NCBI RefSeq assembly: GCF_900200035.1
Contig: NZ_FZTC01000012.1
Span: forward strand, 62,001-126,000
DNA length: 64,000 bases
Direction: 5' to 3'
DNA from: Klebsiella grimontii
GTDB taxonomy: Bacteria; Pseudomonadota; Gammaproteobacteria; Enterobacterales; Enterobacteriaceae
Shown one piece after another: positions 35,194 to 37,203 of the stretch. The notes under the pieces are model-generated. The model was not told where the DNA came from. It made no database searches and worked only from the letters and a program-made list of their open reading frames with translations. Position numbers and translations under genes: made by a program. Position 1 is the stretch's first letter. Each line of letters begins with the position of its first letter.

Positions 35194-35508
35194 TTATTTG
35201 ATTCTTAAATCGTTCTCAACCATACGAACGCCCTGCACTTTACGCGTCACTTCTACCGCTCGTTTAGCGCTATCGGCGGATGAGACAAAGCCGCTGAGCT
35301 GTACACGACCTTTAAAGGTCTGGACGCTAATTTCCGAAGACTTAATCTCTTTGTCATTGAAGAGCGCGGTTTTGACTTTGGTGGTCACGACGGTATCGTC
35401 AATATACCCACCGGTACTTTCCTTTGTGGATGAACCTGCGCAGCCCGCAAGCGTGGCGGCGACCAGAAGCGTCGCGCAACACGCAGATATTGCTTTGAAC
35501 CATTTCAT
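35194..35508 (-). CDS. BON-domain lipoprotein
   Basis: 104 residues started at MKWFKA (35508); a longer frame begins six codons earlier with no clear ribosome-binding site. It has a signal sequence with lipobox L20-A-G-C23, so it is lipid-anchored, and one BON domain (about 38-104, ending VRMVENDLRIK) of the OsmY/DolP type that binds phospholipid. An Asp is absent after the lipidated Cys (CAGSS), so sorting to the outer membrane is expected. It is not in the E. coli K-12 order at this spot. Function is unassigned. Confidence 0.85.
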   Translation of the reverse strand: MKWFKAISACCATLLVAATLAGCAGSSTKESTGGYIDDTVVTTKVKTALFNDKEIKSSEISVQTFKGRVQLSGFVSSADSAKRAVEVTRKVQGVRMVENDLRIK

Positions 35509-35841
35509 GGATTTCTCTCCTTGCACTTATCCCACCCAGGATCAGGTCGGTTAACAGGAATAAATTATAGTGGAAAGAGGGAGTTGCCAATGAAAAAAGT
35601 GCTGAAGGACAAGGTGAATTATTGCGTTTAAGAGGTTTTGAGACAAAGAGAGTGGCTGGAGATTATCTCGCAGACCATGAAACAACAGCGTGGCTGCTAT
35701 CTCGGAGAAGATGGTGCATCCGGGAGGATGACTCACTCGGTTCGCCCTTCGGGCCGTTGCTGAAGCAACGTTATCCTCCCTGGTGCTGGCGATTATCTCG
35801 CAGACCATGAAACAACAGCGTGGCTGCTATCTCGGAGAATA
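35509..35841. other. Spacer between BON gene and the tRNA operon
   Basis: The stretch 35712-35841 is a copy of the tRNA-Arg spacer sequence (matches 35981-36110). The stretch 35527-35711 contains the BON gene promoter region and the end of the tRNA transcript. I see no gene here; short frames are chance openings through the repeats. Confidence 0.6.
35712..35841 (-). repeat. tRNA-tail repeat, copy 1 (after last tRNA-Arg)
   Basis: This 130-base copy is nearly identical to 35981-36110. It begins (plus strand) with an 18-base copy of the tRNA-Arg 3' end, TGGTGCATCCGGGAGGAT (35712-35729). A closing stem GGGAGGAT (35722-35729)/ATCCTCCC (35773-35780) encloses two hairpins: GCCC-TTC-GGGC (35744-35754) and CGTTGC-TGAA-GCAACG (35755-35770). 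On the transcribed minus strand the structure ends with CCGGATGCACCA, like a tRNA acceptor end. Confidence 0.85.
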
Positions 35842-35918
35842 TGGTGCATCCGGGAGGATTCGAACCTCCGACCGCTCGGTTCGTAGCCGAGTACTCTATC
35901 CAGCTGAGCTACGGATGC
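35842..35918 (-). tRNA. argQ: tRNA-Arg (anticodon ACG), copy nearest the operon end
   Basis: 77-base tRNA with an encoded CCA, identical to the three other copies. The anticodon loop reads CTACGAA, so ACG, read as ICG after A34 deamination. By order from serV this is the argQ position. It decodes CGU/CGC/CGA arginine codons. Confidence 0.97.
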
Positions 35919-35980
35919 ATCGGGAAACTTGCTTTACTGCCGATATTGATACCGCTGCTGAAGCCGTATCAAGTAAGAGA

Positions 35981-36110
35981 TGGTGCATCCGGGAGGATGA
36001 CTCACTCGGTTCGCCCTTCGGGCCGTTGCTGAAGCAACGTTATCCTCCCCGGTGCTGGCGATTATCTCGCAGACCATGAAACAACAGCGTGGCTGCTATC
36101 TCGGAGAATA
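35981..36110 (-). repeat. tRNA-tail repeat, copy 2
   Basis: Contains the 18-base tRNA-Arg 3'-end copy (35981-35998), closing stem GGGAGGAT (35991-35998)/ATCCTCCC (36042-36049) and the same two inner hairpins as copy 1. Together with the tRNA it makes a 269-base unit (35842-36110) repeated in tandem. Confidence 0.85.
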
Positions 36111-36187
36111 TGGTGCATCCGGGAGGATTCGAACCTCCGACCGCTCGGTTCGTAGCCGAGTACTCTATCCAGCTGAGCTACGGATGC
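36111..36187 (-). tRNA. argZ: tRNA-Arg (anticodon ACG)
   Basis: Second identical 77-base copy with encoded CCA; argZ position by order. It sits in a nearly perfect tandem repeat of tRNA plus spacer, so the copy number may change by recombination. Confidence 0.97.
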
Positions 36188-36249
36188 ATCGGGAAACTTG
36201 CTTTACTGCCGATATTGATACCGCTACTAAAGCCGTATCAAGTAAGAGA

Positions 36250-36383
36250 TGGTGCATCCGGGAGGATGACTCGCCTTGCGGCTCGCCCTTCGGGCCGTTG
36301 CTAAAGCAACGTTATCCTCCCTGGTGCTTGCGGCTAATACCGCCACCTCATCCACATCTTCGTTGCTGAAGGTACGGAGAATA
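36250..36383 (-). repeat. tRNA-tail repeat, copy 3 (diverged)
   Basis: Starts with the same 18-base tRNA 3'-end copy (36250-36267), closing stem GGGAGGAT (36260-36267)/ATCCTCCC (36314-36321). The linker before the first hairpin differs (CGCCTTGCGGCT, about four bases longer) and one loop is TAAA instead of TGAA, but both stems are intact. Beyond 36330 the spacer is unrelated to copies 1 and 2. Confidence 0.8.
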
Positions 36384-36460
36384 TGGTGCATCCGGGAGGA
36401 TTCGAACCTCCGACCGCTCGGTTCGTAGCCGAGTACTCTATCCAGCTGAGCTACGGATGC
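36384..36460 (-). tRNA. argY: tRNA-Arg (anticodon ACG)
   Basis: Third identical 77-base copy with encoded CCA; argY position. The following 60-base spacer to the next tRNA lacks the tail repeat. Confidence 0.97.
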
Positions 36461-36520
36461 ATCGGGAAACTTACTTTACTGCAGATTTTGATACTGCTGC
36501 TAAAGCCGTATCAAGTAAGA

Positions 36521-36597
36521 TGGTGCATCCGGGAGGATTCGAACCTCCGACCGCTCGGTTCGTAGCCGAGTACTCTATCCAGCTGAGCTACGGATGC
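36521..36597 (-). tRNA. argV: tRNA-Arg (anticodon ACG), promoter-proximal copy
   Basis: Fourth identical copy, only four bases from the end of the tRNA-Ser gene, so the two are cut from one transcript. argV position. Confidence 0.97.
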
Positions 36598-36601
36598 AAA
36601 A

Positions 36602-36694
36602 TGGCGGTGAGGCGGGGATTCGAACCCCGGATGCAGCTTTTGACCGCATACTCCCTTAGCAGGGGAGCGCCTTCAGCCTCTCGGCCACCTCACC
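36602..36694 (-). tRNA. serV: tRNA-Ser (anticodon GCT)
   Basis: 93 bases with encoded CCA, a long variable arm (TGCGGTC...GCTGCA) and anticodon loop CTGCTAA, so GCT for AGC/AGU codons. It is the first gene of the serV-argVYZQ operon. Confidence 0.97.
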
Positions 36695-36756
36695 ACACGC
36701 CTCTTACGAGTGCTTCGAAGAACTTGTTTCTGCTCTTCGTCGCTGCGATGGCGCAC

Positions 36757-36784
36757 ATATTACTTTCTGGTACTTATAAGTCAA
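36757..36784 (-). promoter_or_regulatory. Promoter of the serV-argVYZQ operon
   Basis: On the minus strand TTGACT (36784-36779), 16 bases, then TAATAT (36762-36757), followed by a GC-rich discriminator (GTGCGCC) typical of stringently controlled stable RNA promoters. It points at serV about 60 bases away. The rest of the 36695-37017 gap shows no gene. Confidence 0.75.
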
Positions 36785-37017
36785 ACCTTTTTTCGAGACC
36801 TTTTTTTCGTTTGCACACTTCCCGCGCAATTAGCCTGTGAAAACGGCAAAAAGAGTATTTTATCAACAAGAAATTGGCGATTACGCCGCTGCTAACGCAA
36901 AAGATAATTGTCGCGGACGCGGAGAAAGAGACAAAAAAGAGGGGCTATCGTAGAGGAAAAGTGGCAAAAACGGGGGATGGAAGGAGGCGCCTCACCGAAT
37001 AGCGAGGCGCGAAAACC

Positions 37018-37203
37018 TTAGTAACTGGACTGCTGGGATTTTTCAGCCTGGATACGCTGGTAGATCTCTTCACGATGCACGGAGACTTCTTTAGGGGCAT
37101 TAACGCCAATACGTACCTGGTTACCCTTCACCCCTAAAACTGTCACAGTGACCTCATCTCCAATCATGAGGGTCTCACCAACTCGACGAGTCAGAATCAG
37201 CAT
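37018..37203 (-). CDS. csrA: Carbon storage regulator CsrA
   Basis: 61 residues, apparently identical to E. coli CsrA ([18 protein letters not shown]...). It is a dimeric RNA-binding protein that blocks translation at GGA motifs; RNA-contacting residues L4, R6, R7 and R44 are present. It lies between alaS and the tRNA operon. An AAGGAG ribosome-binding site precedes the ATG. Confidence 0.98.

Follow-up and report, generated by a model that had tools for sequence, protein, structure and literature searches.

Recombination with the resident tRNA gene as the probable keeper of tRNA-linked repeats in the serV-arg operon of Klebsiella grimontii

Why should a tRNA gene be followed directly by a unit that ends in a copy of the gene's own 3' end, and what holds that copy to its original? 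The question is raised by a 64,000-nucleotide stretch of Klebsiella grimontii contig NZ_FZTC01000012.1 (positions 62,001 to 126,000; "the window"), whose minus strand carries an operon of the E. coli type, csrA-serV followed by four arg genes. Three of the four tRNA-Arg genes carry such a unit, which begins immediately 3' of CCA and finishes with a repeat of the tRNA's last 18 nt. By place and tail, the units can be assigned to the tRNA-linked repeats (TLRs), a known kind that includes rtT (RttR) of the tyrT operon. We think it probable that the TLRs of the serV-arg operon are maintained by recombination and that RNA, if released from them, is mostly a by-product. The units, their resident tRNA genes (the tRNA gene that each unit follows), and the spacer that has no unit are as follows.

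36461..36520, minus strand: inter-tRNA spacer without a unit (empty site)
36384..36460, minus strand: tRNA-Arg(ACG), resident of unit A
36250..36383, minus strand: TLR unit A, 134 nt, between two tRNA-Arg genes (leader at its start; 5' arm 36321-36314; hairpins 36311-36296, 36295-36285, and 36282-36273; tRNA-tail copy 36267-36250)
36111..36187, minus strand: tRNA-Arg(ACG), resident of unit B
35981..36110, minus strand: TLR unit B, 130 nt, between two tRNA-Arg genes (5' arm from 36049; tail copy 35998-35981)
35842..35918, minus strand: tRNA-Arg(ACG), resident of unit C
35712..35841, minus strand: TLR unit C, 130 nt, trailing the last tRNA-Arg (5' arm 35780-35773; tail copy 35729-35712)

A unit runs through a leader, the 5' arm GGGAGGAT, the hairpin CGTTGC-N4-GCAACG, the hairpin (G)CCC-GAA-GGG(C), a linker, and ATCCTCCCGGATGCACCA. 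The initial annotation of this DNA had described three copies with an 18-nt copy of the tRNA-Arg 3' end and the stems GGGAGGAT/ATCCTCCC, GCCC/GGGC, and CGTTGC/GCAACG, all of which are present in the window, the tRNA-end copy with 18 to 19 nt. It had the copies begin with the tRNA tail; since the operon is on the minus strand, they end in it instead. It also spoke of three spacers, which is correct for the two copies between tRNA genes (tails at 35981 and 36250) but not for the copy at 35712, which trails the last tRNA. As it stated, the linker and a loop of the third copy (unit A) are altered with the stems kept, and the altered linker itself folds into a third hairpin, GCC-GCAA-GGC. Two of the three copies were folded, A and C, and both folds exceed chance against dinucleotide shuffles (z-scores of -3.49 and -2.84, respectively). 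With 97% identity between the first two 269-nt periods, the two copies that they hold do not count as independent evidence. The empty spacer at 36461-36520 resembles the stretch found 3' of units A and B, and thus the unit looks like either an exact insert or an exact loss.

To follow the tail beyond the window, we used 243 elements collected with a broader regular expression from a collection scan, a survey of 60 genomes with the Rfam model RtT, E. coli K-12, and the window's genome. The scan gave at least 120 stretches and the survey a match in 33 of its 60 genomes, from which up to 30 loci were taken; tallies from this set are not frequencies. Leaving out the 38 elements with no tRNA within 2 kb upstream on their cut loci, the tail matched the last 18 nt of the resident tRNA at 16 or more positions in 178 of 205 elements and at all 18 in 159, the search pattern having set only the first four tail letters. 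The mean match was 17.1 to the resident versus 11.1 to other types. The resident was best or tied among 26 anticodon types for 196 of the 205, and the tails matching at 16 or more positions cover 12 anticodon types. Where residents of one type differ at the 3' end, the tail was closer to its own variant in 164 of 167 cases, although only the 178 good matches entered this comparison and most variants differ by one or two letters. With residents of a rarer form, 29 of 29 tails followed the resident's form. The tail may be kept equal to the tRNA by selection or, more simply, by recombination with the tRNA gene.

The arg operon of E. coli K-12 has three units, which correspond to those of the window. 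We compared the window with ten E. coli strains picked from match lists, one of which (DG343-1) was scored from its annotation and a full-length match. Units occupied 16 of the 35 spacers between tRNA genes and 8 of the 11 trailing sites; four of the ten strains had no inter-tRNA unit, and the trailing unit was missing in three. In three strains, the match to the K-12 trailing-region query begins exactly at the tail copy, meaning that the 133-nt unit is missing there. When occupied and empty tRNA 3' sides were set against each other, the junction was mostly exact at the tail copy, and what follows a unit is sequence of the kind that follows CCA in an empty spacer. Because there are strains without inter-tRNA or trailing units, no single unit seems to be needed for tRNA processing. 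Taken together, the occupied/empty pattern is consistent with recombination of the tail with the tRNA and speaks against an RNA role being essential. In a separate stretch, from XL1-Blue (L181), the arg operon ends inside its second tRNA-Arg, downstream of the first TLR unit, where a stretch with an annotated 5S gene takes over.

What is seen is a unit of about 133 nt placed right after a tRNA gene, its last part repeating the final 18 nt of that gene. From these data we infer the following model. Recombination of the tail with the tRNA 3' end would remove, duplicate, and homogenize units, and the tRNA would go unharmed because either product keeps an intact tRNA tail. The nucleases that process the genuine tRNA would also cleave the co-transcribed unit at its tail, and the resulting short RNA would be mostly a by-product. 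For the tail of 5S-linked TLRs, an RNase E signal has been suggested in the 2021 account of the family (PMC8144298).

That account, in the passages drawn on here, describes TLRs as repeats ending in 18 to 19 bp that match exactly the 3' end of the tRNA or rRNA upstream, places 22 of them at ten K-12 loci, and traces them to Egan and Landy (1978) and Rudd (1999); it gives their function as so far not known and an early claim of function for rtT as withdrawn (PMC8144298). The window units lie downstream of a gene in a tRNA operon and have a tail identical to the upstream tRNA 3' end. The K-12 TLRs, including rtT, resemble them in their place behind a tRNA, the 18- to 19-nt tail copy, and the hairpin core; for E. 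coli rttR behind tyrV, the annotated end is exactly the CCA of the tail. The tyr-type TLRs have T-arm copies, whereas the arg units are short forms without them. The likeness to rtT proposed in the initial annotation is borne out through the published TLR description, which fits both, while the matches to the Rfam family RtT (RF00391) stay below its gathering score. The three window copies gave E values of 2.7e-5, 2.7e-5, and 2.8e-4 (37.2, 37.1, and 33.1 bits, against a gathering score of 45 bits), and two of these matches need a long stretch running into the upstream tRNA. Two K-12 arg units scored 31 and 29.2 bits, also below the cutoff, and the third is absent from the match list.

Of the five RtT matches in the window's genome, one at a contig edge has a tRNA-Tyr tail and the others are close to tRNA genes. 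Two in a tRNA-Lys operon are over the cutoff, and one behind tRNA-Ser(GGA) is below it. In the same genome, at L011 1059-1320 (tRNA-Lys) and on the minus strand of L012 at 941-590 (tRNA-Ser), TLRs stand after a terminator-like stretch that is repeated behind the element, an arrangement like that described for rrnB T1-T2. The TLRs RrA, RrB, and RrF, behind 5S rRNA, share with the window units the CGTTGC-GCAACG hairpin pair, CCCGGAGGG, and a tail that copies 18 nt from the 3' end of the gene before them (rrnB sequence; PMC8144298). They differ in lying between two terminators, in their 5S tail, and in that a matching 5' arm is not evident. Since the core stands with a 5S tail behind the 5S rRNA of rrnB, the host need not be a tRNA. 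The same core hairpins also occur directly before ATCC in dispersed palindromes (GTCAT..ATCCAG) of some Gammaproteobacteria, which resemble repetitive extragenic palindromes (REPs) and, unlike the window units, have no link to tRNA. The exact pattern of the core is rare when many genomes are sampled: it was found in 14 of 398, 11 of them within the 18 of the window's own family, and the reversed control pattern gave no match in the 398. In a distant family of the same phylum, the elements of two stretches (L202 and L203, from genomes G105 and G160) are co-stranded with a nearby tRNA-Ser gene and have Ser-like tails.

The stems themselves are conserved. Standard pairs fill 96.1% of pair cells among 27 distinct arg copies, and five pairs have changed on both sides, as many as in 1 of 500 shuffles; none of the 500 was as high on paired cells or on the covariation score. 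In slid registers, paired cells fall to 30 to 59%. When all elements are taken together, CGTTGC/GCAACG of the first hairpin gives way to CAACGC/GCGTTG, CAGCGC/GCGCTG, and other stems, and the last hairpin, in 108 distinct strings, has a mean of 3.24 closing pairs versus 0.59 in shuffles. The pairing of the hairpins is thus maintained while the letters change. The initial annotation had proposed selection on structure, which this covariation supports, and had named stems that are not conserved in relatives as the outcome that would speak against it; this outcome was not found. Arg and tyr elements show strong pairing of the 5' arm with the tail. Exact strings, alignments, and the 5S sibling did not bear out a closing stem with the tail as a feature of all elements.

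Several of our results weigh against recombination with the resident gene, or against the structure that we describe. Two strains have a 102-nt spacer holding an imprecise remnant, and presence and absence cannot separate insertion from deletion. The elements and the strains are related, so that the counts are not independent events. In 27 of the 205 elements the tail matches the resident below 16 of 18, and three tails follow a tRNA variant other than that of their resident. As for the fold, the number of pair types in the 27 arg copies is not above shuffles (117 of 500 as high). The own tail was strictly the longest match upstream in 82 of 178 elements by exact strings and in 110 of 158 distinct upstreams by alignments (0 of 3 for Ser(gga) and 0 of 6 for Pro), and no 5' arm was evident by eye upstream of the 5S sibling.

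We consider it unlikely that the units are instead functional RNAs, small RNAs that carry the tail and, once released, serve as sponges or as decoys resembling tRNA. The covariation of the stems would suit such a role, as would the presence of at least one arg unit in 5,118 of 5,426 E. coli genomes. Published work on relatives points the same way: 5S-linked TLRs give rise to processed RNAs of about 173 and 115 nt, for which interactions with Hfq and CsrA are reported (PMC8144298), and in Actinobacillus pleuropneumoniae detection of two RtT-family RNAs by reverse transcription-PCR is reported, with Northern signals for most of the set (PMC4986893). The strains lacking units argue against an essential role, as noted above. 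In the core, G-T accounts for 22 and A-C for 15 of 1,800 pairs, while tRNA stems have 40 and 8 of 1,092; with G-T barely above A-C, unlike in tRNA stems, pairing as RNA is less clear. A CsrA sponge was set aside for the arg units because the published predictor scored the 19 tRNA-operon TLRs below 0.01 (PMC8144298).

Mobility offers another account, which we hold to be quite unlikely: that the core is a gammaproteobacterial hairpin cassette that moves as single-stranded DNA into one short target immediately 5' of ATCC, in tRNA T-loops and REP-like palindromes alike, with TLRs as its tRNA branch and the tail as the displaced tRNA 3' end, which would make insertion and later excision harmless. 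Slightly more doubtful is a second form of it, a mobile or formerly mobile single-strand hairpin cassette whose entry point lies 5' of ATCC in palindromic hosts, with TLRs as the tRNA-resident branch and two target sites, between TTCGA and ATCC of the tRNA T-loop and between GGA and ATCC of REP-like repeats. Clean empty sites are present, as expected of an element like a REP or a miniature inverted-repeat transposable element, and they are compatible with gain as with loss. The core does interrupt REP-like repeats between GGA and ATCC, matching the T-loop position. It was found there in 14 of 14 stretches from four genomes: eight in Thiohalobacter (G060; L187-L194), covering 8 of its 11 pattern matches, and the rest (L195-L200) in three other genomes. 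Uninterrupted repeats, counted in three of the four genomes with up to two mismatches, number 344 in Thiohalobacter. In other dispersed copies (L043, L045, L073, and L110), however, the left flank differs.

On the tRNA side, a GTTCRA-like string lies 30 to 80 nt upstream of the CCCGNAGGG hairpin in 168 of the 243 elements (GTTCGA in 141), with an insert of 63 to 68 nt in 113 of the 168. Many long forms have GGTTCGA before the core, so that core and tail look like a cassette set between TTCGA and ATCC. Some of the 168, however, are inserts of about 100 nt that simply start at the resident tRNA's own T-loop, the CCCGNAGGG loop and ATCC were set by the search pattern, and the short arg units have no T-arm copy ahead of the core. 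When flanks were joined, 28 read as tRNA. Fifteen of these (85 to 101 nt) merely rejoin the intact resident tRNA and were not counted, leaving 13 with a 63- to 64-nt insert, 12 of them in loci titled Photorhabdus, where otherwise whole tRNA-Lys genes are interrupted by the core; such chimeras could also arise by crossing-over between a TLR and a tRNA. GNA-type triloops give very stable DNA hairpins, and C(GNA)G makes up 81 of 123 triloops in the last hairpin; in the upstream hairpin, GNA was found in 59 of 85 parsed loops, with 158 elements unparsed. A table in one survey lists rttR as REP-containing (PMC12306157).

The interrupted Photorhabdus T-loops lie at L056 6960-7400 (plus strand), L077 2450-4300 (minus strand), and L080 7700-8000 (plus strand); the genes are tRNA-Lys in tandem arrays, plus one tRNA-Tyr-like. 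Y1 transposases occur in all ten genomes with dispersed copies (eight over the cutoff) and in 5 of 14 control genomes. No core stood beside the Y1 gene at the four loci inspected, and no plainly recent jump was seen. Carriage by phages or plasmids was rejected as the main route. The matches there comprised four phage records, three of them Salmonella records of 0.5 to 0.7 Mb, and 16 plasmid records, all called non-mobilizable, of which 14 measure 243 kb to 5.4 Mb and the others 121 kb and 14 kb. Of six viral-contig stretches, two carry tRNA genes on the piece.

It is very improbable that the units are pure tandem-duplication debris of the tRNA 3' end, neither functional nor mobile: a direct repeat often does run past CCA into the flank or terminator (75 nt in the window; also at Lys, Ser, and Glu loci) and the K-12 spacer unit matches 1 to 6 places per E. 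coli genome having any, but debris would hardly retain a hairpin core that is common to 12 tRNA types and REP-like hosts and has covarying stems, and the covariation has already weakened this reading. The remaining features of the locus, which include part of that 75-nt repeat, are given below. No terminator-like site was found in 35200-37200 of the window.

37018..37203, minus strand: 61-amino-acid open reading frame placed and oriented like csrA of E. coli, named by synteny only
36602..36694, minus strand: tRNA-Ser(GCU), first tRNA of the operon
36521..36597, minus strand: tRNA-Arg(ACG), with the empty spacer directly after it
35655..35711, minus strand: second, element-less copy of the unit C leader, directly after the unit C tail, part of the 75-nt direct repeat (97%)

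Strains that have kept all units of one operon, only some of them, or none amount to natural deletions, and with them TLR function becomes testable. RrB, one of the 5S-linked TLRs, is situated within the dual terminator of rrnB, a common component of cloning vectors (PMC8144298). If the cassette is mobile, it would explain the tail copies in tRNA operons and would represent a further type of element that targets tRNA genes without damaging them.
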